Assembly: GCA_029865385.1 (NCBI GenBank)
Contig: JAOUGX010000006.1
Coordinates: 1 to 64,000 of the forward strand
DNA from: Gammaproteobacteria bacterium
GTDB taxonomy: Bacteria; Pseudomonadota; Gammaproteobacteria; Steroidobacterales; Woeseiaceae
DNA: 64,000 nucleotides
Direction of reading: 5' to 3'
Notes under the pieces: generated by a model
Seen by the model: only the letters and a program-made list of their open reading frames with translations
Database searches by the model: none
Told to the model about the DNA's origin: nothing
Shown: piece by piece, positions 4,296 through 46,528 of the stretch
Layout: each line of letters opens with the position of its first letter
How positions within the stretch are numbered: the stretch's first letter is position 1
Made by a program: the position numbers and the translations under genes

Positions 4296-5264
4296 CTAGA
4301 AGCGAACGAGTGCGGAGCCCCAGGTGAAACCTGCGCCGAAGGCCTCCAGCAACAGAAGGTCGCCTCGTTTGATACGCCCGTCCCGTACGGCGACATCCAG
4401 CGCCAGCGGAATCGAAGCGCTCGATGTATTGGCATGTTCGTCCACCGTGACCACTACCCTGTCCATCGGCAATTTGAGTTTTTTGGCGGCAGCGGAAATG
4501 ATTCGCAGATTGGCCTGGTGCGGAATCAGCCAGGCGATATCACTTTCCTTGACGTTATTGGCAGTCAGAGTTTCGCGGGCGATCGCCCCGAGCACGCCCA
4601 CTGCGGCACGAAACACTTCATGGCCTTTCATCTGGATGAATGCACTCTCCTGCCGCACCTGGTCGTAGCCGGAAGAGATGCCGGCGGGAACATGAAGAAG
4701 TTCTTCGTGCTGTCCATCCGCATGACTGTGCGTTGACAGAATGCCGGCTTCATCCGACGCTTGCAGTATCACGGCTCCGGCCCCGTCGCCAAACAATACG
4801 CAAGTGCCGCGATCATTCCAGTTGATAATGCGCGAGTAGATTTCGGCGCCAATGACCAGGGCACACTTCGATCCGCCGGTCCTGACAAAACGGTTTGCAA
4901 TATCCAGCGCGTAGACGAAACCGGAACAGGCTGCGTTGACGTCAAATGCAGCAAATCCGCTTATGCCGAGGCGCCGCTGCACGATGCAGGCAGTACTTGG
5001 AAATACCTTGTCGGGAGTGGAAGTGGCGACGATGATCAAATCCACATCCTTTGCGTCTGTCTCCGCCATTTGCAGCGCTTCCCGTGCGGCTGCCAATCCC
5101 ATATCAGATGTTTTCTCATCATCTGCCGCAATGTGACGACGTATTATTCCGGTTCGTTCCCGAATCCACTCGTCGCTGGTATCGACGATGGCCTCGAAAT
5201 CCTTGTTGGTCATAACCCGCTTCGGCAGGTAGCCACCGGTGCCGGTGATGCGCGCATACTTCAT
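4296..5264 (-). CDS. 3-oxoacyl-ACP synthase III (KAS III, FabH-like)
   Basis: 322-aa thiolase-fold enzyme that condenses an acyl starter (usually acyl-CoA) with malonyl-ACP. The catalytic triad is intact: C113 in [12 protein letters not shown]249 in IPHQANLRI and N279 in [13 protein letters not shown], the same order and spacing as E. coli FabH. It starts in an ATGA overlap with the upstream ligase-carrier gene, so the two products are probably made together. There are no acpP, fabD or fabG genes nearby. That argues for a dedicated role, for example elongating an acyl group activated by the neighbouring ligase, rather than the housekeeping fatty acid gene. Confidence 0.9.
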
Positions 5265-7219
5265 GGAGTGGACCCTGATTTGCTGCGAATAAAATCCGCC
5301 ATTTGCCGCACGGTCGGGTAGTCAAACAGATCGCTGACATCGACCTTGCCCGGAAATTTCAGATCAACTGCCAGCATGATTTCGGTCAATGTCAGTGAAC
5401 TGATCCCTGTCTCGAACAAGTTGTCGTCGGCCGAGATCCTGCGATCTTTTGCAAACTCGCTGCATATCGCCAGCAGTTCTGCGACCAGTGGGTCCGATTC
5501 GGGTGTCGGTTCCCGCGTCGAGCTTTTCAGTTGCCCCAACTCCGCCACGGCAGCGGCGAACTCGCCGTCAAGATAAGCTGCAGCAAGGTGCGCTCGCTGA
5601 ACCTTGCCGCTGGTGGTCTTCGGGATCCTGGCAACAGGCACGACCTGGTCCACGTCGAGACCTGCATGCGCGCCAATCCTGTCACGGATTTGTTCGACCA
5701 GCGGGGCGAAAGAACGCAAACCCTGGCGATGCAAGACAAAAACGACCAGCTGTTCTACGGGGCTGTCGGCCGGTCTGACGCCACTAATGACGACCTTTCC
5801 CAGATCGAGTCCCTCAATGGCAGCGACGATCTCTTCGAGGTCGTGCGGATAGTAGTTCTGGCCGTTGATGATGATGATGTCCTTGACGCGACCGGTAATG
5901 ACGAGGTCGCCATCGACGATGACACCGACGTCGCCGGTTCGTAACCAGCCATCGGCCGTGAACAGCTCGGCCTGTGCTTCGTCAGCGTTGTAAAGCCCGC
6001 TGGTGACGCTGCCACCACGAAGCAGTATATTTCCAACGAGGCCATCCGCGAGCGGCAGATCATCCTCGTCTGCAATTCGCAATTCCACATCACGGATCGG
6101 TCGACCGACTTTCAGGAAGCTGACCGCATCCGCATCGCCAGGATTTGCATTTTCGAAGGCGGTCCCGATCTTCAGTGAATGCCGGTTCGCAGTGATGCGT
6201 GAGTACGCGTGACCTGGCTCGGGAAAGGTAACGGCGACCGTTGCTTCAGCCAGTCCGTACACCGGGTGCATGGTATTGCGCCGCAAGCCGAATGGAGCCA
6301 TGGCGTCCATGAATTCTTCACACAATTCCCAGGATATCGGCTCGGCACCGTTCAGGATCAGTCGGACGTTGCTGAGATCAAGACCGTCGAGGCCCTTGCG
6401 CTCGAACATCTTGAGAAAGTGCTTGTATCCGAAGTTTGGCGAGCAAAGCTGCGTCGCACGAAGTTCGCTCGCTTTACTCATCCACAACAGCGGCCTTCGG
6501 ACGAACAGGCTGGTATCCATCACCGTATGATTCATTCCGGCTGCCATCATCGTCAGATGATAGCCGATCAGTCCCATGTCGTGGGTCAGCGGCATCCAGC
6601 TCAGTGAATGGTCTTCCGGTGTAAATTTGAGCTTCTCGATAACCGCGCGAAAATTGGTACCGAGATTGCCGTGCGTCAGGCAGACTCCCTTCGGGTCGCT
6701 GGTCGATCCGGACGAATACTGGATGAACGCCAGATCGTCTGCATTGACCTTGGCAATATTTCCATCCTGGCCGGATTCAATATCGCTCATCAGCACCGTT
6801 GCGTCATGTAACAGAGTGACAACAGATGTCAGCTCCTGTGATTCGGCGAAAGCCTTCAGTTTCGCGAGCAGTGCCGAATCGGTGTACAGGGTGCCGCGAC
6901 GCATCTGCTGCAGAATGCGAAAAAGCTTCAAACGATGTTCGTCGCTGATGCCCACGGCGACCGGTACCGGAACGATACCGCCGAGAACTGCCGCCCAGAA
7001 AGCGATGATGAATTCTTCATTTGACTTACTGAAGATGACGAGTTCGTCGCCGGGTACCATGCCTTTCTCTTGCAGGGCGCCGAGCAGTTCAGAAGAACGA
7101 AGCCAGATATCGTCAAATGACACCTTGGATTCGTCCGTTTCGCCGTCGATGAAGTGAATATGCTTAGCGCGCCCACGCGCATCAGCAAGCATGTCAATCA
7201 GGCTGCCGTAAAGGACCAT
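5261..7219 (-). CDS. Fatty-acyl-AMP ligase fused to an acyl carrier domain
   Basis: 652-aa two-domain protein. Residues about 1-560 are an AMP-binding adenylation enzyme with the P-loop [11 protein letters not shown] (168-178), [12 protein letters not shown], the hinge segment [16 protein letters not shown], and the C-terminal Lys in [12 protein letters not shown]. The [10 protein letters not shown] block resembles the fatty-acyl-AMP ligases (FAAL) that load carriers rather than CoA. Residues about 575-652 form a phosphopantetheine carrier domain, with S608 in GISSL as the likely attachment site; the usual GxDSL has Ser in place of Asp. I infer that it activates a fatty acid, loads it in cis, and passes it to the KAS III enzyme. 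The substrate is unknown. Confidence 0.87.
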
Positions 7220-38112: not shown

Positions 38113-38199
38113 TGGTGCCCGGGGCGGGAATCGAACCCACACTCGCTTTCGCGAAACGGATTTTAAGTCCGTAGCGTCTACCAGTTCCGCCACCCGGGC
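38113..38199 (-). tRNA. tRNA-Leu (anticodon UAA)
   Basis: 87-nt type II tRNA. The acceptor arms GCCCGGG/CCCGGGC pair fully, the anticodon loop CTTAAAA gives UAA, there is a long variable arm (TTCGCGAAAGCGA), and the T arm carries GTTCGATTC. CCA is genome-encoded. It is last in the Gly-Cys-Leu series, as leuZ is in E. coli. Confidence 0.97.
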
Positions 38200-38212: not shown

Positions 38213-38286
38213 TGGAGGCTAGGGTCGGAATCGAACCGGCGTCCACGGCTTTGCAGGCCGCTGCATAACCACTCTGCCACCTAGCC
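38213..38286 (-). tRNA. tRNA-Cys (anticodon GCA)
   Basis: 74-nt cloverleaf with acceptor arms GGCTAGG/CCTAGCC, anticodon loop CTGCAAA (GCA), discriminator U73 as required for CysRS, and an encoded CCA. It sits 13 nt before tRNA-Leu and shares a transcript with it. It corresponds to cysT in the E. coli pgsA-glyW-cysT-leuZ order. Confidence 0.97.
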
Positions 38287-38560: not shown

Positions 38561-38597
38561 AAAAAAAAAAGCCCCGCATCGCGGGGCCTTTTATTTC
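38561..38597 (-). terminator. Rho-independent terminator after tRNA-Gly
   Basis: Read on the minus strand, the 7-bp perfect stem GCCCCGC/GCGGGGC (38571-38587, loop of 3) is followed by a run of ten T. It begins about 10 nt past the tRNA-Gly 3' end. It separates tRNA-Gly from tRNA-Cys/Leu, which have their own promoter. Confidence 0.9.
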
Positions 38598-38673
38598 TGG
38601 AGCGGGTGAACGGGCTCGAACCGTCGACCTGTACCTTGGCAAGGTACCGCTCTACCAACTGAGCTACACCCGC
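38598..38673 (-). tRNA. tRNA-Gly (anticodon GCC)
   Basis: 76-nt cloverleaf with acceptor arms GCGGGTG/CACCCGC (the 3' arm containing one mismatch-free pairing run), anticodon loop TTGCCAA (GCC), T arm GTTCGAGCC, and encoded CCA. It corresponds to glyW of E. coli. Its own promoter lies at 38752-38779, and a terminator follows at once. Confidence 0.97.
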
Positions 38674-38751: not shown

Positions 38752-38779
38752 ATTGTAGCCGGTCAACCGGGTCTGTCAA
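38752..38779 (-). promoter_or_regulatory. Promoter for tRNA-Gly
   Basis: On the minus strand a perfect -35 TTGACA (38779-38774), a 16-bp spacer and TACAAT (38757-38752) are followed by the GC-rich discriminator CTGCGCCC. Transcription would start near 38745, 72 nt before tRNA-Gly. It lies in the 168-bp gap after the RnfD/FG-GAP gene, so tRNA expression does not depend on that cluster. Confidence 0.75.
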
Positions 38780-38841: not shown

Positions 38842-41565
38842 TCAGTCTTGCGTCAGTTTGTGATACCGGTTCATGGCCAGGTCGGGAAAACGCGCCCGTT
38901 GCATGCCGCACCAGGCCACTTCGATTTCCATTGGCCCGGTGTAGCTGCCCAGGCCGAACAGCAGGCGGCTGTCGCCCTGCGCCGAAAAACCATTTGCCGA
39001 CGTTACTTCCCGATACTGATTCGACATACCGCTTTCCTTCGGAAACCGGAGCCAGGCCCGGGTACCGACGGCATCCCGGTTGCATTCCCTGGCATTTCCC
39101 TGCAGATCGAGTCCCAGCCAGGTCCTGTTTTCACTGTCGTTGCGAAACAGCGATGCCGCTTCGAACTGATGTGTCACCAGCGCATCGAGGTCGCCGTCAT
39201 TGTCAAAATCGGCAAGCGCGATGCCGCGCGACACACCGCCCTCGTCCCAGCCCACATCGGCTGCCACATCGACGAAGTTGCTGCCGCGATTCAGGTAGAC
39301 GCGATTGAGTTCATTCGGAAAAATACAACGTCCACGCAGGTCCGCCCAGCGATCGGCGAATCCGTGAACGCTTGGCGCCGTCAGCGCTATCTTGTCGTTC
39401 CAGTACCAATAGTCGGGGCATCCCTCGTACTGCTCGTCGTAGCTGTCGTCGACCATGCCGTTGGCCTGCAGGATATCGATACGACCGTCGCGGTCGAGGT
39501 CGCCGACGGCCCCTCCCCAGCCGAATCGATGTTCGTTCAAAGCATTGAGCGATGTCGCACGATCCCGCAGCGCATCGGCGCCGCGCGTACCGAGGGTGCC
39601 GTCGTTGAGCCACAAGAGGCTCCCTTCGGGTTGCAGCACGTGATGCACGTTCGATACGTAGATGTCCGGGTAACCGTTGCCGTCAACATCGGCGATCGAC
39701 GCGTTCATTCCCTTATATGTGTCACGGCCAGGCTGACCGACGAGGTGCCCGCGCACTTCGGCGAAACGCCGGCCACCCTCGTTCAGATACAGTTGGTCCG
39801 GCCCGAAGTCGTTCGCGAGGTACAGGTCGGTATAGCCGTCATCGTTTAGATCCGATGCACCGATCGCGATAGTCCAGCGCTTGCCTTCCAGTCCCCAGTC
39901 ATCGTTGTCTGCCAGTTCGAAGGCAGTGCCTCGGTTCAGGTACAGCCGGTTTTCGCCACCGTTCGCGGCATCGTGCCAGGTTCGGTGCATGATATTGAAC
40001 ATGCGCCGGTCCCCCTCGTATTGCGGTGCCGGTAAGCGGAAGACGTTCAGTCGCGTTTCCTGCTCGTATTCCGCCAGGAACGGATCAAGCGAATTGCCAA
40101 CCAGGATATCCAGCAGGCCATCCCGATTTACATCGATGGCGTTGGCGGCCAGGCTGACCGTATACGGACGTATTCCGCTCGTGTCACCGGTATCGACAAA
40201 TAGCAGCTGGCCGTCTTCTGCCACCCGGTTCTGAAGCAGACGGCTGTTGCCGTAGCCGGCTTGCAGGAACAGGTCCTGGTCGCCGTCGTTGTCGTAGTCG
40301 AGGAACAACGCGCCGGAGGGCAGGCCATGGCTCGCAGGGTCGCTCGTGAACTCATCGAGCGATGGCATAGCATGTCGCCGGAACGTCAAATTGCCGTTGT
40401 TCAGAAAAAGCGCGGCTCGCTTGCTCTGCTCCTTCAGCGGGTAGGTGAGGAAGACGTCCAGCAGCCCGTCGTTGTCAACGTCGGCGACTGCAACGGCGTC
40501 GCCGACGGAGAGCAGCCATTTGGCAACGTGCGCGAGCCGCGGATCCACCTGTTGCAGGATGTCGCCCGGCGCGGCGTCCAGCCCGCTTGCCTCTGTATCG
40601 ATCCGGACAAAGCGAAATCCGGTGTCTCCACCAGGGACCAGGCTGCGCGTCGATTCGTGCGCGAAATGTGCCGTAATTGCAATCGCCGAAATAATGACTG
40701 CGTTGCGGACGGCCGGCAGCAGTCGCGATTTCAACATGCCGGGATTTTCTCGGTACGCGGCCAGCGACTGCCACGCAAACATCAGCGAATAGACGACGAA
40801 CGCCGCTTTGAACAAAGCGGCGAAACTGCCGTACTGCTGAAACATCAGGTCGATAACACAGATAGCGAATGACATGGCGACTTGCGCCCGCGGCGTCTTG
40901 GGAGACGTCGCCGGATCCGTGATCATGAAGAACGCAAAAAGATAGAAAGCCGGCGATGTCAGCGTGCCGAAGAACAAGGTCTCCGGCGGAACGTGATAAC
41001 GGGTGAGCCACGCGCGAAGCGCGAGATTCAAAGTGTAGAAAAGCAGAAACGAGGCTATCAGCGCGCTGCGCCGGATCTTCAGAACAAACAGCAGCAGCGC
41101 GGCGGTAACGATAAAGACGGCGACGGCCGGATAGCCGCCCCATTGATAGGCCGGCGCGGGGCTGATCATTTCGCCACCCAGCCATATCGCCACGACCAGC
41201 CCGAAAAGAGACGGGTTGTATACATGCCGGCCGTTAACTGTGAATACGTACTTCGATGCAATCGCAAAAAACACTGGAATCAGCGGCAACCAAAGGCCGT
41301 GGGAGTAATTCACCAGGATGGCCAGCGAGGAGCCGCTTATAGCCGCGCTCAACGGAATGAGCCAGCGCCCCTTGAATGCACGGTGAAAAAAGACATCCAG
41401 CAGGCAAGTGGCCAGAATCACGAGCAATATCTGGGTCGGGCTCCGGTTAAACCCGAGCAAAGTGATTCCCAGCACCAGGTAACTGATGAGCAGCAGCAGC
41501 ACCGGCAATCGCGGATCACCTTTCACAGGAAAACCGTCCAGTGATCTCAGATCTTGCAGATTCAT
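38842..41565 (-). CDS. RnfD/NqrB-like membrane domain fused to FG-GAP repeats and an ASPIC/UnbV-like tail
   Basis: 907-aa fusion. Residues about 20-300 hold eight to ten helices of the NqrB/RnfD family (VYNPSLFGLV at 116-124, FFMITDPATSPKTP at 212-225). The family's SGAT flavin-attachment motif is not evident. From about 345 the protein is periplasmic, with seven calcium-binding FG-GAP/VCBS repeats (VADVDNDGLLD, LDYDNDGDQD, IDVNRDGLLD, SDLNDDGYTD, ADVDGNGYPD, GDLDRDGRID, ADFDNDGDLD). The C-terminal 75 residues resemble UnbV/ASPIC (NRTWLGLDLQGN…DAVGTRAWL). It may link membrane electron transfer to an extracytoplasmic propeller. Last gene of a six-gene cluster; ATGA overlap with the gene before it. 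Confidence 0.8.
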   Translation of the reverse strand: MNLQDLRSLDGFPVKGDPRLPVLLLLISYLVLGITLLGFNRSPTQILLVILATCLLDVFFHRAFKGRWLIPLSAAISGSSLAILVNYSHGLWLPLIPVFFAIASKYVFTVNGRHVYNPSLFGLVVAIWLGGEMISPAPAYQWGGYPAVAVFIVTAALLLFVLKIRRSALIASFLLFYTLNLALRAWLTRYHVPPETLFFGTLTSPAFYLFAFFMITDPATSPKTPRAQVAMSFAICVIDLMFQQYGSFAALFKAAFVVYSLMFAWQSLAAYRENPGMLKSRLLPAVRNAVIISAIAITAHFAHESTRSLVPGGDTGFRFVRIDTEASGLDAAPGDILQQVDPRLAHVAKWLLSVGDAVAVADVDNDGLLDVFLTYPLKEQSKRAALFLNNGNLTFRRHAMPSLDEFTSDPASHGLPSGALFLDYDNDGDQDLFLQAGYGNSRLLQNRVAEDGQLLFVDTGDTSGIRPYTVSLAANAIDVNRDGLLDILVGNSLDPFLAEYEQETRLNVFRLPAPQYEGDRRMFNIMHRTWHDAANGGENRLYLNRGTAFELADNDDWGLEGKRWTIAIGASDLNDDGYTDLYLANDFGPDQLYLNEGGRRFAEVRGHLVGQPGRDTYKGMNASIADVDGNGYPDIYVSNVHHVLQPEGSLLWLNDGTLGTRGADALRDRATSLNALNEHRFGWGGAVGDLDRDGRIDILQANGMVDDSYDEQYEGCPDYWYWNDKIALTAPSVHGFADRWADLRGRCIFPNELNRVYLNRGSNFVDVAADVGWDEGGVSRGIALADFDNDGDLDALVTHQFEAASLFRNDSENRTWLGLDLQGNARECNRDAVGTRAWLRFPKESGMSNQYREVTSANGFSAQGDSRLLFGLGSYTGPMEIEVAWCGMQRARFPDLAMNRYHKLTQD

Positions 41566-42665
41566 ACTGCAGCCATTTCTATGTAAGGAACTCGTTTGTC
41601 GATTGCTGAAATTGTGTCTCGTTGTTCGGGATAGTAGATCAGAAACAAGGTGCCGCCTGCGTCAATTCGACGATAGTCATGCAATACCGGGCACAGTGGA
41701 TCGTCTTCATGCAGGCCGGCAATCATGAAGTGGTTTTCTCCGGCTCGCCTGTCCCGATAAATGCTGCGCAGGAGGCTCGCAAAAACCTCTCGACTGTCGT
41801 TCGTGACGGCGATCATCCCGAGATACAGGAATCGAATCTGCCCTCCGACCGGCGGCAGTTCATGCACAGACGTAAATCGTGCAGCGAGGTTATAAAATGG
41901 TCGGGCGGCGCGCAGACTTGCCGAATACTCTTCGACATGCGTCTGGCGGAAAGCCGATTGATCCCACGCTGCGACACAGCCGACGATGGTTTTTCCCTGA
42001 GTGGCGACATAGAAATCGATCGGGGAAAGTCCAAGGAGTCGACCGCTGCCGAGATCCGACTCGCGGTAGGCGGGTGCGAGCTGCTTGCGAGCCAGCTCGC
42101 GTCGCAAGAAACCGAATACGTCCGGCATGATTTCGGCGTTTGCCTGGCGAATCGATACTCCGGCGCAATCCAGTTCCGCTAGCCTCCGGTCAAGATGAAT
42201 CGCGGGGGTCAGAATCCTGCCGCGCGCCTCGTAGATCGGGAGCCCTGCGCGCGCACCGCTCAGTGCGCGCACCGCTTCGTCGTTGCCTTGCAGAATGACG
42301 GAGTAATACAGGGGAAGTGGCTCGGCATCGTGCAGTTTGCGAAGGAACGCGTAGCCACGGGCCAGCAATGTGCGACGCCGAACGTCGATGTCGGCTCGCA
42401 GATCCGACAGGTATCCGACGATTGTTTCCTCACCGTTGAGAAACAGTCGCTGTCCGTGACGCGCACCCAGACCGACGATCTTGCCGGATCTCGAGTCTGT
42501 GCATTTGATGACCCTTGACCCCTCCCCCTGCACCCTGCAACCGAGGAAGTAACTCGGCTCGCGGCGGAAACTCAGGCTGATGTAGCCGCGCATGCGGTCC
42601 TCTGCCATGCGTCTTCGCAACTCGGCATCGTCTTCGGGCCCCGCAAGTTCGATGGCGTAGCGCAT
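41562..42665 (-). CDS. GNAT-like acyltransferase family protein
   Basis: 367-aa soluble protein with GNAT-like organisation. The first half has the core IVGLGARHGQRLFLNGEETIVGYLSDLRAD, then RRRTLLARGYAFLRKLH (helix after the acyl-CoA-binding strand) and YSVILQGNDEAVRAL. The second half (about 190-367) looks like a further, degenerate acyltransferase lobe. The acceptor is unknown. Start: ATG 42665, giving an 11-bp gap from the GH3 gene; a TTG at 42689 would overlap it. The stop is coupled to the RnfD/FG-GAP gene. Confidence 0.6.
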   Translation of the reverse strand: MRYAIELAGPEDDAELRRRMAEDRMRGYISLSFRREPSYFLGCRVQGEGSRVIKCTDSRSGKIVGLGARHGQRLFLNGEETIVGYLSDLRADIDVRRRTLLARGYAFLRKLHDAEPLPLYYSVILQGNDEAVRALSGARAGLPIYEARGRILTPAIHLDRRLAELDCAGVSIRQANAEIMPDVFGFLRRELARKQLAPAYRESDLGSGRLLGLSPIDFYVATQGKTIVGCVAAWDQSAFRQTHVEEYSASLRAARPFYNLAARFTSVHELPPVGGQIRFLYLGMIAVTNDSREVFASLLRSIYRDRRAGENHFMIAGLHEDDPLCPVLHDYRRIDAGGTLFLIYYPEQRDTISAIDKRVPYIEMAAV

Positions 42666-42675
42666 TGGCACTTTT

Positions 42676-44214
42676 TCAGGTCCCGGCAATGCGCAGGTAA
42701 GTCTCGGACCAGTGCCTTCCTGCCAGCGTCACCGGCTTGATGTCGCCCAGCCGCTGACCGCATTCGAGACAGATGCTCTGGTAGGTGTCCAGCAGAGATG
42801 AAACCCGGCGCGGCTGCAACATCGGCAATTGCTCCAGTTGCCGTGCGTGCCGGTATTGCGGATTGCGCATGAGGCTTTCATCCGCCAGAGCGGCAAAGCG
42901 CTCCTGCTCGTCCGCCGACACGGCTGCCGAGTCAAGCAACAGCAAGTAGCCCGGTTGATCTGCAACGGGAACCAGCAGGGCGTCTCCCGGTATCGCAGCA
43001 ATTGCCGTGCGCACGAATTCCTCCGTCAGTTTTTCCCCGCAGAGGTCTGATGCGACGCCCTCCCGGCCCAGGTACTCGAAGCACGGCGATGCTTCGTACC
43101 ACCCGGCAAGCCGAACCCGGTCTCCCAACCGGTATCGATAAAGCCCTCCTGCCGTGGTCATGATGACCGTATAGCTCGCTTCGTCCTGCAGGTCCGCCAG
43201 GGCCACCAGGTTCCCCTCGTCGTTCAGGAACTCGAAATAAGCGCTGTTGATGGCCAATACCGGAGCGCAGGCATCTTCCAGCGGCAATGTAATTGCGCCT
43301 TCCGTTGCAAGCAGACCTTTTCCCTGCAGGTGGCTTCGAGGAAAGGATTCTTTGAGTGTTTCGGCGTAACGGCGACTCGACGCCGAGCTCCAGCAACTGA
43401 TCGTGTCCAGGGCGGGCCAGAGTGCCTGCCAGTCGAAACGGTTGCGCGCATGGAACCCGGCAAGGACAGAAGCAGCCTCCGGTTGCACAGCCTCAATTTC
43501 ATCGGCCAGGCTTGTTGCGTCTTTGCGAACCGCTTCGAGCAGCTGCAAAAAAAAGGTAGGACTCCAGACCGATACGAAACTCAGGTCCCTGCAAGCCAGT
43601 AGCGAAACAAGCGTTTGCCTTTGCCAGGCCTTGAACGAATCGTGTTTTGCAACCTCCGGCGGTACAGCCAGCGTGCTGCCGATGGCTTCCGCCAGTTCCG
43701 CGCCGAACCATACAGCATCGTTATCGATGCCGATGGGCACGCCGCCCTTCGTATGGCTTCGCGGACGAACGGCCGGACTGATTGCCCAGTACGCCCGGCC
43801 CTGCATTATTCCGGGCCGAGCATTGAGCAGATCGTCCAGCCAGGGCAGTATCGCCTCGCGAAGGCACTCGATCGAGTGCGCGGTAATGGGAATGTACTTC
43901 TGGCCCCCGGTCGATCCGCCGGTCTCCTCGAAAAGCAGGACCTCGTCCGCGCAAAGCACGTTGCCCGTACCGTTCATCATTCGCCCGATGTCTTCGCGCA
44001 GATCCTCGAAGGTCTGGATCGGTATCCGACTTGCATAAGCGGAAACCCCATCGATGCTGGCGAAGCCGTAGCGACGACCGAACTCGGAACGCCGGTTGCG
44101 CCGCAATATCTCAGTCAACAACTGCTGCTGAGCCCTTTCGGGCTGCCGCAGAAGCGCTGTCAGCTGCCGGCGCTTGCCAGCGAGGCCACGTCGAATATCA
44201 GCCCATCCCGACAA
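42676..44214 (-). CDS. GH3 family acyl-adenylating amido synthetase
   Basis: 512-aa member of the ANL-type GH3 family, best known from plant enzymes that adenylate acyl acids such as jasmonate or indole acetate and couple them to amino acids. Visible are the P-loop ETGGSTGGQKYIPIT (97-111) and the strong motif YTVIMTTAGGLYRYRLGD, followed by GWYEASPCFEYLGR. Bacterial members are mostly uncharacterised. TTG 44214 is used as the start, with GGAGG about 10 nt upstream; this makes a 55-base overlap with the preceding gene. It likely forms an N-acyl or amide bond in the pathway of this cluster. Confidence 0.85.
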   Translation of the reverse strand: MSGWADIRRGLAGKRRQLTALLRQPERAQQQLLTEILRRNRRSEFGRRYGFASIDGVSAYASRIPIQTFEDLREDIGRMMNGTGNVLCADEVLLFEETGGSTGGQKYIPITAHSIECLREAILPWLDDLLNARPGIMQGRAYWAISPAVRPRSHTKGGVPIGIDNDAVWFGAELAEAIGSTLAVPPEVAKHDSFKAWQRQTLVSLLACRDLSFVSVWSPTFFLQLLEAVRKDATSLADEIEAVQPEAASVLAGFHARNRFDWQALWPALDTISCWSSASSRRYAETLKESFPRSHLQGKGLLATEGAITLPLEDACAPVLAINSAYFEFLNDEGNLVALADLQDEASYTVIMTTAGGLYRYRLGDRVRLAGWYEASPCFEYLGREGVASDLCGEKLTEEFVRTAIAAIPGDALLVPVADQPGYLLLLDSAAVSADEQERFAALADESLMRNPQYRHARQLEQLPMLQPRRVSSLLDTYQSICLECGQRLGDIKPVTLAGRHWSETYLRIAGT

Positions 44215-44933
44215 GAATTCAGACCCTCCAGAAATGCAGTACGCGAAATGAAGCGCATGTTGTCATCACAGAGCTCGGTAATACAAACCAGTTCGTCACC
44301 GGACACATAACCCGGATTCCTTTTCAGAAAGTATTGGACATCCGGTTTTCGTACGATCTCTTCACCGAGCTCGGACCACTCCTGCCGCAGATGTCCGCGC
44401 GGCTTGTCAAAGTGCAACACGCCAGTCGCCGGATTGTAGGCTCTGCCGAATTTCTTCAACGCGACGATATCGACAATGTTCTGCAGTTCGGCTGGTGTCG
44501 CTTCGCGGTGGCGTGGAAAAAAGCGCCTTGTGAATGCCGGAAGGTATCGATACGTTCGGTGTCCCTTCACTATCAGGAACCAGTACAAAGGCGTTTCAGG
44601 ACGCTGTTTCTTTATCTGCCCGGCAAAATAACACCAGGCGTAGGCCAGCCTCTGTTCGCCCCAGTGTTCGTGACTGATAATCGTGTCACCGGAATAGAGC
44701 AACATGCATTCGGGGCTTGTCTCATCTACCCGGCAAACTTCAATCGTCGAAAACCCCTGCAGTTCCTGCTGCGCATCCCAAAGCAGAATGGCAATCGACT
44801 TGCCGTTCAGGTCCTGTTCGAATTGCGCCGCATCAACTGCATCGTAATACCTGTTGAACAATGCGAACATTCTATTGCGCGTCGCGGCGTCCAGTGATGG
44901 CACTGAATGGTATTCGGCGGCCAACTTAGACAT
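44160..44933 (-). CDS. Unrecognised soluble protein, GH3 partner
   Basis: 257-aa soluble protein without signal or membrane segment. I do not recognise the family with confidence. The N-terminal half (FALFNRYYDAVDAAQFEQDL, then KSIAILLWDAQQELQGFSTI) and the arrangement of strands and helices hint at a GNAT or acyl-homoserine-lactone-synthase-like fold. The segment YWFLIVKGHRTYRYLPAFTRRFFP is distinctive. It overlaps the next gene (GH3) by 55 bases and the previous one by 8, so it is tightly coupled to both. A role as acyl donor or acceptor enzyme for the GH3 ligase is inference. Confidence 0.55.
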   Translation of the reverse strand: MSKLAAEYHSVPSLDAATRNRMFALFNRYYDAVDAAQFEQDLNGKSIAILLWDAQQELQGFSTIEVCRVDETSPECMLLYSGDTIISHEHWGEQRLAYAWCYFAGQIKKQRPETPLYWFLIVKGHRTYRYLPAFTRRFFPRHREATPAELQNIVDIVALKKFGRAYNPATGVLHFDKPRGHLRQEWSELGEEIVRKPDVQYFLKRNPGYVSGDELVCITELCDDNMRFISRTAFLEGLNSCRDGLIFDVASLASAGS

Positions 44934-45534
44934 GCAGCCAGCGCCTCGCGAAAACCAGCACATACACAATCAGCAATCCGACGCAGATCGCGGTCGCAAG
45001 CAGAATCGATTGGTGATCGGCGGAATCGGGAACGAAATAGACAGTAGCTCCGGCCACACTCGCGTGCTTCAGCATGTACAGCGCAAAAAGCCCCTCCGGA
45101 ACGTAGATCAGACTGGCAACCAGCAGGAAATCGCTGTAAGGCCTGTTGTCGGCACGAAAGGCAGCACTCAGAAACCACAGCATGAGTCCCAGCGAGAACA
45201 TATCGTGCGCGATTCCCATCCACGGGTGCCAGCTCTGCGATACGTACATCAGATACAGTTCGGCAATAGCTCGCAGCAGCATATTCGTCAGCAGGACCTT
45301 GCATGCGAGCCGCGCCGCCGGCGGCATGCGCCGGTCGAGCAGGAGCAGGAGTGGCATCAAGTACCAGAAATATACCGTACACGCGAGCCAGGCCAGCTTG
45401 ACCAGCGCTATTTCACCACCGGGGAGAATGCCCGAATTCTGCAGTCTGTAAAAAATGGCCGCCAGAAGAACAAGCGCTGCCACCACCAGCGCAAACGCTT
45501 TCTTGAGGCCGCCTTCAGATAACGATGCGAACAT
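44926..45534 (-). CDS. Six-helix membrane protein, unknown function
   Basis: 202-aa integral membrane protein with six predicted helices (about 12-29, 43-65, 74-96, 105-122, 130-150, 176-196) and few polar residues in the membrane. Single His and Trp residues cluster in the MYVSQSWHPWMGIAHDMFS segment between helices 3 and 4, a possible cofactor or ligand site. No family recognised. ATG 45534 lies 20 bases inside the Rieske gene. It is placed between the oxygenase and the GH3 partner gene. Confidence 0.6.
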   Translation of the reverse strand: MFASLSEGGLKKAFALVVAALVLLAAIFYRLQNSGILPGGEIALVKLAWLACTVYFWYLMPLLLLLDRRMPPAARLACKVLLTNMLLRAIAELYLMYVSQSWHPWMGIAHDMFSLGLMLWFLSAAFRADNRPYSDFLLVASLIYVPEGLFALYMLKHASVAGATVYFVPDSADHQSILLATAICVGLLIVYVLVFARRWLHV

Positions 45535-46528
45535 CGTAAGGCTCGGTGCGGACGGCGGGAACCCTGCCTTCGGAGAGCGCATTCCTCCAGCGACGGATGT
45601 GTGGCAGCAGAACGTCCTGCTCGATAATGCGAAATTCACTGCGCTCGTATTTCGCAAGATTCCGCTGCTGCTTTCGCAGTGTGCGAACATCCTGGGCAAT
45701 GATCTTTCTGGACAGCGGTTCGAAGACCAGGCGCAGCAATGCGCCGATCTTCCGGTAACGAAATGTAACTACGGTATATACGTCAGTCAGGACATCGTTC
45801 ACCGGCGTGCAGCTGGACGTGATCGTGTAGTGCCTGTCTTCCGAGAAAACATAATCGACTCGCGACATAGCCGGCGCAATGAAACGGTCGCTGTGCTGCA
45901 TGCCGCCCTGTTGCGGTGAAAGCAGTGACCAGACCAGGCTCCTCTCGCGCGGTTCGTCGAAATATTCGGCTACGGCTCCATCTTCCAGCGCACTTACCCG
46001 GCAACGCACTTCGCGGTCAGTCGGGCTGCGAAACCAACTGCGATGGACAAAGGTAGCGTGCGGGCAGTCGAGGAAATTCTCCAGGCAGGACTCGACGGGA
46101 GCTTCGAAACGATTATACAAGCGGAAGCTTGTCCAGCCGTGCTCACCAAGAAAAGGAAACTTTTGTGGCGTTTCCTGCCGCGGCTCGACTCCAGGACATA
46201 CCCAGATATAGCCGTCCTGCTCGCAACAGCGATACCTTCTGATCGCGCTTTCATTGCGACATCCGTCTGAAAACGATTGCGAGGGAACGTGGACCACGCA
46301 ACCAGTACGGTCGTAGCACCATCCATGATAGGAGCATTGCAATCTTCCGCCGACGACTTTGCCGTCAGCCAGCGGCATGCCGCGATGTGCACAACGATTC
46401 TCGAGTGCCACCGGCAAACCATCGGCGTCACGGAACAGGACGATATTACGCGACAGCAAGTTGACGACTATCGGCTTACCCCGCAGCCGGCCGGTCGGAC
46501 ACGCTATGTACCAGTAGTCTGTCAGCAT
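45515..46528 (-). CDS. Rieske non-haem iron oxygenase, alpha subunit
   Basis: 337-aa ring-hydroxylating-type oxygenase. The Rieske [2Fe-2S] ligands are C46-x-H48 (CAHRG) and C65-x2-H68 (CSYHGW). The mononuclear iron site is in ENFLDCPHATFVH, with H157 and H162 as ligands and D154 as the electron-bridging Asp. The third carboxylate is probably in the AQDVRTLRKQQRN segment. No ferredoxin or reductase gene is adjacent, so electrons must come from elsewhere, possibly from the RnfD-like protein at the end of the cluster. It opens the cluster, 60 bp after pgsA. Confidence 0.88.
   Translation of the reverse strand: MLTDYWYIACPTGRLRGKPIVVNLLSRNIVLFRDADGLPVALENRCAHRGMPLADGKVVGGRLQCSYHGWCYDRTGCVVHVPSQSFSDGCRNESAIRRYRCCEQDGYIWVCPGVEPRQETPQKFPFLGEHGWTSFRLYNRFEAPVESCLENFLDCPHATFVHRSWFRSPTDREVRCRVSALEDGAVAEYFDEPRERSLVWSLLSPQQGGMQHSDRFIAPAMSRVDYVFSEDRHYTITSSCTPVNDVLTDVYTVVTFRYRKIGALLRLVFEPLSRKIIAQDVRTLRKQQRNLAKYERSEFRIIEQDVLLPHIRRWRNALSEGRVPAVRTEPYDVRIVI

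Follow-up and report, generated by a model that had tools for sequence, protein, structure and literature searches.

Plant GH3 enzymes adenylate an acid and form an amide. A bacterial member of the family, OlsH, forms N-acyl ornithine in the OlsH/OlsI pathway of Singulisphaera acidiphila (PMC12493201). Three other kinds of described system bear on the locus studied here: the enediyne polyketide synthase cassette (C-1027, on plasmid SGLP1; our L130), in which a UnbV-type and a UnbU-type protein are paired beside biosynthetic enzymes; the Rnf and Nqr complexes with their membrane subunits RnfD and NqrB; and the B12-dependent radical S-adenosylmethionine (SAM) enzymes of the HpnJ, BchE, PhpK and ladderane-lipid type. 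The locus is an operon of six genes on the minus strand of a 64,000-nt stretch of contig JAOUGX010000006.1, from a gammaproteobacterium of the family Woeseiaceae; "the window" below means that whole stretch. The operon encodes a Rieske oxygenase (Rieske1), a membrane protein of about six helices (MP), a soluble protein of predicted GNAT fold (SOL), a GH3-family ligase, a larger GNAT-like protein and an apparent fusion of UnbU and UnbV homologues (Table 1). The genes GNAT-GH3-GNAT form a core that recurs throughout a widespread family of clusters, in which the oxidative partners are interchangeable. As a working proposal, to which we give a little less than an even chance, the operon would encode the core half of a pathway by which an oxidised N-acyl amide is made.

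The operon is real, tightly coupled and conserved as one unit. An earlier reading made from the sequence alone (the sequence-only reading) had described six closely packed genes, and all of the frames were reproduced at the same coordinates. They overlap by 20, 8, 55 and 4 bases and leave one 11-bp gap, with preferred starts at 45534, 44933, 44214, 42665 and 41565. Pfam families are matched over cut-off in the Rieske protein, the GH3 protein and the fusion, and by none of the other three window proteins. By Pfam the six genes include no polyketide synthase, hydrolase or methyltransferase family, and none of the six proteins matched a defence family in PADLOC. For comparison, genomes and loci carry G and L numbers, G000 being the genome of the window itself. 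Scanning 84,980 species with the SOL alignment gave 239 relatives; 80 of them were retained and, with the window and L154, make up the 82 loci counted below. L127 is left out, L017-L028 are not included (several repeat records among L029-L108), and the near-identical L083 and L084 are both counted. All six genes occur together in 10 of the 82 loci, the window included, and one of the ten is cyanobacterial (L048). The order is the same in L029 and in L017, a locus from another genome of the same family, where identities are 53-72%. In G011 the six genes lie in pieces over three contigs (L028, L020 and L125). Among 369 genomes drawn from the class, MP was found in 5 and SOL, by the same type of search, in 9; the MP and SOL matches overlap or lie at most 5 bp apart in all five MP genomes. 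These five were already represented as rows in the query alignment, so the test shows that no MP away from SOL was found rather than showing new carriers. The genes are otherwise sparse: GH3 was matched in 12 of 60 relatives, counting distant ones and the genome of the window. Of 296 genomes belonging to the order, 5 have the fusion at E 1e-30, again counting the window's own and also G250, which has the unfused form. The expectation that the GH3, Rieske and RnfD/FG-GAP families would co-occur in other genomes is upheld, with gene order kept.

Table 1. Features of the six-gene operon and of the tRNA block beyond it (positions in the window).
Feature	Position	Strand	Evidence or remark
Rieske oxygenase (Rieske1), 337 aa	45515..46528	(-)	PF00355 78.1 bits, VanA_C 45.3 bits
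MP, 202 aa, with about six membrane helices; member of a conserved, unnamed family	44926..45534	(-)	alignment and predicted model
SOL, predicted GNAT-fold protein, 257 aa; core gene	44160..44933	(-)	AlphaFold, Foldseek, VIA
GH3-family acyl-adenylating amide ligase (by sequence), 512 aa; core gene	42676..44214	(-)	PF03321 153 bits, PF23571 58.1 bits
GNAT-like acyltransferase of 367 aa that probably has two domains; core gene	41562..42665	(-)	Pfam matches in family members
UnbU-UnbV homologue fusion (by sequence), 907 aa; RnfD-like part at residues ~1-290, then FG-GAP and UnbV_ASPIC	38842..41565	(-)	Pfam
Promoter-like TTGACA-16-TACAAT before tRNA-Gly	38752..38779	(-)	intact, downstream of insert
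tRNA-Gly(gcc)	38598..38673	(-)	displaced 7.9 kb from pgsA
tRNA-Cys(gca)	38213..38286	(-)	
tRNA-Leu(taa)	38113..38199	(-)	

The window protein at the centre of the core belongs, judging by its sequence, to the GH3 acyl-amido synthetase family. Both GH3 models listed in Table 1 are matched over their cut-offs (23.6 each), and the C-terminal model GH3_C reaches 20.8 against its cut-off of 23.6. The nucleotide-binding motifs I-III, as defined in PMC12493201, are recognisable across 47 family members. The T and E of motif II are kept in 45 and 46 of the 47 rows and the G and D of motif III in 40 and 46. The nearest solved chains are plant GH3 enzymes (1.1e-19); the window protein shares with these the family and the nucleotide-binding motifs, and differs from them in its distant sequence, its weak C-terminal match and its place in a bacterial operon. 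The GH3 tree made here is a quick tree. Among NCBIfam models only NF052613 (OlsH) was matched, at 61.5 bits and 5.4e-17. The likeness to the OlsH/OlsI system lies in a bacterial GH3 enzyme in a small operon and in adenosine triphosphate (ATP)-dependent amide formation, demonstrated there (PMC12493201) and inferred here. The locus differs in a GH3 protein that scores far below the OlsH model, in its two GNAT-like proteins, Rieske enzyme, fusion and six-helix protein, and in having no hydrolase or methyltransferase family among its six genes. The sequence-only reading had proposed that GH3 activates an acid and forms an amide, and family membership supports this.

SOL, which that reading had left as an unrecognised soluble protein, has a GNAT fold as judged from its AlphaFold model (pLDDT 91.5). 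The best Foldseek row is 2hv2 (E 2.1e-6), whose function is unknown, and AAC(2')-Ia (6.0e-6) and further acetyltransferases come next; VIA aligns the model to SpNatD (4ua3) with Z 13.0 and a root-mean-square deviation (rmsd) of 2.5 over 152 residues. A profile search of the PDB with the SOL family gave no match, and its profile similarity to the larger GNAT family is weak (probability 12.5). For the larger protein, members of the family match PF13527 (15 of 34) and PF00583 (11 of 34) at E up to 1, the PDB profile search of the family gave two weak GNAT matches (E 0.036 and 0.29) and two unrelated ones, and the homologue in Citrobacter is named "N-acetyltransferase" in RefSeq. The window copy matches neither Pfam model. 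GNAT-like partners had been part of the sequence-only reading and are supported, SOL being by its modelled fold a GNAT itself.

By tblastn labels all 82 loci have SOL; 65 have GH3 within the stretch taken around SOL, and 55 have the larger GNAT. What accompanies this core falls into types. Module A (MP, RnfD-like or UnbV) is found in 17 loci, and module B, recognised by the B12-radical-SAM markers rS1 and rS2, in 30. Type C, with a PAP2-desaturase protein, accounts for 14 loci in Burkholderiaceae and Pseudomonas, and these 14 have a related Rieske gene. The types exclude each other: no locus of the 82 holds two, and Rieske1 is found in no B locus. Among the 65 loci with both SOL and GH3, 14 have A, 30 have B and none has both (Fisher one-sided 3.8e-5, uncorrected for shared ancestry and cut contigs). 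On the SOL tree the types are clustered, A requiring 6 changes and B 6, with at least 3 of each forced by well-supported branches; this fits a repeated exchange of modules, although losses and cut contigs can add changes. L063, with rS3/rS4 on a short contig, is "other" in the module count and B in the tree count. Alignment A5 consists of the window with 59 of the 80 loci; 9 had an internal stop and were left out, and 12 were not included. Of 48 relatives, 33 are in alignment A3, 9 others falling outside the length range and 6 not being included.

The same accessories travel with either module. Among the 17 A loci there is a desaturase in 8, a SnoaL-like protein in 8, a PAP2-like protein in 5, the family ABH8 in 7 and a second Rieske gene (Rieske2) in 4; among the 30 B loci the corresponding counts are 18, 16, 8, 6 and 6. 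The B loci combine the core with radical SAM enzymes of the B12-dependent type named above. None of these is among the six window genes, and the four that were scored, from L067, fall far under the cut-offs of the named models. In a few loci (L040, L041, L042, L049 and L053) the neighbour of SOL is not GH3 but an adenylating-type enzyme from one other family, one copy of which matches PF00501. Such loci speak for an acyl-adenylate step next to SOL, and four of them (L040, L041, L042 and L049) also have a member of a cytochrome P450-like family. L154, from a plasmid of Citrobacter portucalensis typed IncFIB, IncFII (NZ_CP134684.1, 51417-63512), is a B-type locus that looks complete, with SOL, GH3, four radical SAM enzymes, GNAT, PAP2, SnoaL-like, a fifth radical SAM enzyme and a desaturase. 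No near match to this core was found in 20,395 E. coli records.

The remaining two proteins of the window operon, besides the fusion treated below, are the Rieske enzyme and MP. Rieske1 has C-x-H...C-x2-H at residue 46 and D-C-P-H-x4-H at residue 154, which we take to be the Rieske 2Fe-2S and mononuclear iron motif patterns. With PF00355 over cut-off as well, the original call of a Rieske oxygenase holds. The nearest solved chains are DdmC (1.2e-22), SxtT (6.2e-18) and SxtDIOX (8.1e-18). MP has R88, E92, H110 and E147 invariant in an alignment of 14 sequences, and its model (pLDDT 91.7) has about six helices. Relatives of the window copy give scattered weak Pfam matches, each in one member. 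The PDB profile search with the family gave no match, and the fold search found no significant PDB match; the best Foldseek row has E 1.2, and the best VIA row, rhodopsin, has Z 7.5 (rmsd 4.6, 161 residues). The likeness of the modelled MP to rhodopsin may be a mere common arrangement of a helix bundle.

A search with the desaturase in the genome of the window found a homologue on another contig, C85, where Rieske2, an NTF2 (SnoaL-like) protein, the desaturase and a PAP2-domain protein stand in a row. Both gene sets lie together in loci such as L029 and L057, and because of this we take the operon and the C85 locus to serve one pathway, of which the operon is probably half. The PAP2 protein (L127:9229-10713 in G000:C85) is 494 aa long; its C-terminal half is without a Pfam match and contains aspartate-rich stretches that look prenyl synthase-like by eye.

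We propose the following scheme for the oxidised N-acyl amide. Most likely, from its enzyme family, GH3 would adenylate a fatty-type carboxylic acid with ATP and couple it to an amine or amino acid. A further acyl group, donated by a thioester, would be put on by the two GNAT-like proteins. An oxygen-dependent module of Rieske1, MP and the fusion would oxidise or desaturate the amide at the membrane, with the FG-GAP/ASPIC part of the fusion probably facing the periplasm. The second, unlinked locus (Rieske2, SnoaL-like, fatty-acid-desaturase-like, PAP2) would then finish and release the product. Other bacteria would have the same acyl core with a battery of B12-dependent radical SAM enzymes replacing the oxygen-dependent module. 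Swaps between aerobic and anaerobic enzymes occur in other systems. The sequence-only reading had a similar sequence of activation by GH3, coupling to an amine, acylation by GNAT and oxidation by the Rieske enzyme, and the enzyme families it named stand; the supply of electrons by an RnfD protein, which it also included, is weakened by the results on the fusion given below. A broader version of the scheme is possible, though on balance doubtful. It would make the GNAT-GH3-GNAT core a widespread new acyl-amide class, have the oxygen-dependent and B12-radical-SAM modules do equivalent C-H chemistry, and make UnbU-UnbV a general membrane device for oxidation or dehydrogenation.

Several points weigh against this scheme. 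What is shown is the gene set with its conserved order, folds, homologies, exclusive alternatives and second locus, and we infer the substrates, the order of steps, the sidedness, the role of oxygen and the product. The fatty acyl and amino acid substrates are an analogy, because GH3 is far from OlsH, with its 61.5 bits against an equivalog cut-off of 620. By Pfam there is no ferredoxin or reductase among the six genes, and the window copy of the larger GNAT matched no Pfam model. No GH3 match was found in 17 of the 82 loci, so SOL also occurs without GH3, and 21 of the 82 fit none of the three architectures; some of the contigs are short in both cases. The cyanobacterial loci L034 and L036-L039 have SOL and no GH3 match in the fetched locus, with surroundings conserved in L036-L039. 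The uncorrected ancestry and cut contigs behind the Fisher value belong here too, as does the distribution of ABH8, which was found in 3 of 9 genomes searched, that of the window not among them.

The strongest alternative, which we consider a real if lesser possibility, is that the product is not a lipid at all, and is instead a small polar amide or alkaloid-like compound. The substrate of the desaturase-like proteins would then derive from an amino acid and be hydroxylated or demethylated by the Rieske enzyme. The solved chains closest to Rieske1 (DdmC and SxtT/SxtDIOX) are small-molecule enzymes, one desaturase-like accessory weakly matches the arginine hydroxylase GntB of guanitoxin (E 0.002, under cut-off), and an AurF-like accessory is found in 8 of the 82 loci. 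However, PAP2-like proteins or PAP2-desaturase fusions are present in 29 of the 82 loci and membrane partners are frequent, as would suit an amphiphile; the two desaturase-like proteins tested also match PF00487 over cut-off.

An unlikely alternative is a membrane amino lipid of the ornithine-lipid type, with GH3 acting like OlsH, an alpha/beta-hydrolase-like protein acting like OlsI and the other proteins modifying the lipid. That the OlsH model is the one NCBIfam match of GH3 agrees with this, as does the finding of OlsH and OlsI in one operon in Singulisphaera (PMC12493201). Candidates for the second enzyme are two families with a motif of S-x-S-[KR]-G type, ABH8 in 13 of the 82 loci and ABH11 in 14, both read as alpha/beta-hydrolases by eye. 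The GH3 score is nevertheless a small fraction of the OlsH cut-off, and neither a hydrolase among the six genes nor ABH8 in the genome of the window was found. ABH8 and ABH11 are also without a Pfam match; ABH8 gave no PDB chain, and ABH11 gave a carboxyl esterase at E 0.021. The amide pathway outlined above remains the reading we prefer to both.

The sixth gene had been described from sequence as an RnfD-like/FG-GAP fusion. The domains stand, since Pfam finds PF03116 (RnfD-like) at 51 bits, FG-GAP at 120 bits and UnbV_ASPIC at 42 bits. Its two halves, however, are closest to UnbU and UnbV, which we take to be the names of the C-1027-type pair; database records call the one "RnfABCDGE type subunit D" or "enediyne biosynthesis protein" and the other "CRTAC1" or "ASPIC/UnbV". 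The FG-GAP part matches UnbV of the C-1027 cluster at E 4.8e-28 and that of G250 at 4.4e-43. The RnfD-like part matches UnbU at E 1.6e-15 (G250) to 7e-10 (C-1027), and the best canonical RnfD at 1.9e-6, in a small database with an incomplete canonical set. A tree separates the 12 fusions, together with the UnbU rows, from 18 canonical RnfD/NqrB rows with support 100/100 and a long-branch warning; the row UnbU_L151 is the window fusion itself, and UnbU_L150 is named by its best match alone. With L151 left out of the position comparison, nine positions are common to 12/12 fusions and 3/3 UnbU rows and to 0/18 canonical rows, two of the nine being mostly gaps in the latter. The motif D-x-x-[ST]-x-A-T, whose threonine is presumably the flavin mononucleotide (FMN)-binding site, is present in 18/18 canonical rows, in 0/12 fusions and in no UnbU row.

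What the fusion has in common with RnfD and NqrB is the membrane core: PF03116 is over cut-off, and K105, N117-P118 and T216-D217, present in 18/18 canonical rows, are kept. Identity as an Rnf subunit was considered and rejected, given a score of 27.5 bits against the TIGR01946 (RnfD) cut-off of 207, the missing FMN-site motif and the grouping with UnbU. By these comparisons the "RnfD/FG-GAP" protein is a fusion of homologues of the enediyne-cluster UnbU and UnbV, without the FMN-site motif. It differs from the enediyne cassette in that the pair is joined in one chain, in reversed order, and stands beside GH3 and GNAT-like genes with no polyketide synthase among the six. The gene family of the fusion, as grouped over the loci, includes L090, whose protein matches the FG-GAP part only.

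It follows that the role first suggested for this protein, passing electrons to the Rieske oxygenase, has become quite improbable. Its homology to RnfD/NqrB with the retained positions would favour such a role, as would the finding that the other five genes contain no reductase by Pfam. The flavin motif is missing in every fusion and in the UnbU rows with which it groups, however, and the 14 C loci have their related Rieske gene with no match to the fusion protein.

On the C-1027 plasmid, the UnbU/UnbV-type genes are directly ahead of the polyketide synthase. No enediyne polyketide synthase adjoins the window fusion; its neighbours are pgsA/uvrC and the tRNA genes. In G250, from the same family as the window, L124 (C478, 7382-14000) has UnbV, UnbU and a type I polyketide synthase in a row, the stretch ending inside the synthase, which over 1257 aa shares 45.5% identity with SgcE of C-1027. 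This is therefore an enediyne-type cassette in a gammaproteobacterial genome. A function for UnbU or UnbV was not found stated among the open-licence papers listed, passages of PMC7692728 included.

The operon sits between pgsA and tRNA-Gly, starting 60 bp past the pgsA stop. The order in E. coli is, we assume, uvrC-pgsA-glyW-cysT-leuZ. As the sequence-only reading said, tRNA-Gly, -Cys and -Leu are found downstream of the cluster on the same strand. A pgsA search in 24 genomes gave a match in 22, that of the window included. The distance from the pgsA match to tRNA-Gly is 61-233 bp in 18 of the 21 relatives with pgsA, against 7.9 kb in the window, which bears out an insertion in this interval; among the other three, G001 and G005 reach the contig end (0 and 847 bp available), and G015 is without a tRNA in the 1.5 kb available. 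G002, of the same genus, has an empty site with tRNA-Gly close to pgsA. Beyond the pgsA and tRNA sequences, a stretch of 52 bases in its spacer is 86.5% identical to the window, the promoter-like site included; because the empty site retains this stretch, the added DNA can be counted from the pgsA stop up to the tRNA promoter, about 7.8 kb. Shuffling the region does not make such promoter-like sites any rarer. In G011, with cluster genes on other contigs, tRNA-Gly still adjoins pgsA, and the insertion site is therefore not common to all carriers.

The tRNA had been raised as a possible integration point, with the remark that neither an integrase nor a duplicated tRNA end was apparent. That remark stands: no tRNA-end repeat was seen flanking the insert, no integrase family was matched among the six genes by Pfam, and no clear break in composition or GC was seen at the insert. 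Integration targeted to the tRNA is rejected, as no duplicated tRNA end was seen and the insert lies upstream of the tRNA-Gly promoter. A terminator-like hairpin (38566-38592; 12 pairs with a T run) is seen just past tRNA-Gly, which may therefore be transcribed separately from tRNA-Cys and -Leu. Elsewhere in the window, 5261-7219 encodes a further acyl-activating protein, an AMP-binding enzyme of 652 aa with a phosphopantetheine carrier domain. The empty site in G002 and G011 and the absence of the genes from most relatives could suggest a chance grouping of genes of unrelated pathways in a permissive site, but the overlapping frames and conserved order already contradict this, and with all six genes in ten loci, one of them in a cyanobacterium, and MP beside SOL in five of five genomes, we regard it as extremely improbable.

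The sequence-only reading knew of no described system with this gene set, and text searches of the open-licence PMC literature for papers that name GH3 together with other parts of the set found none (subscription papers fall outside them). The enzyme families are known, and the combination, like a UnbU-UnbV fusion outside a polyketide cluster, was not found described there. The cluster family is a testable biosynthetic one, and its core is also present in named strains of Pseudomonas and Burkholderiaceae and on a plasmid of Citrobacter. It amounts to a natural experiment, in that oxygen-dependent and B12-radical-SAM sets appear to replace each other around the same core. It also places the UnbU-UnbV pair in a second and simpler setting, where its role can be isolated. 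If the broader version of the scheme is true, UnbU-UnbV of the enediyne clusters would be a general device and not a polyketide-specific factor.

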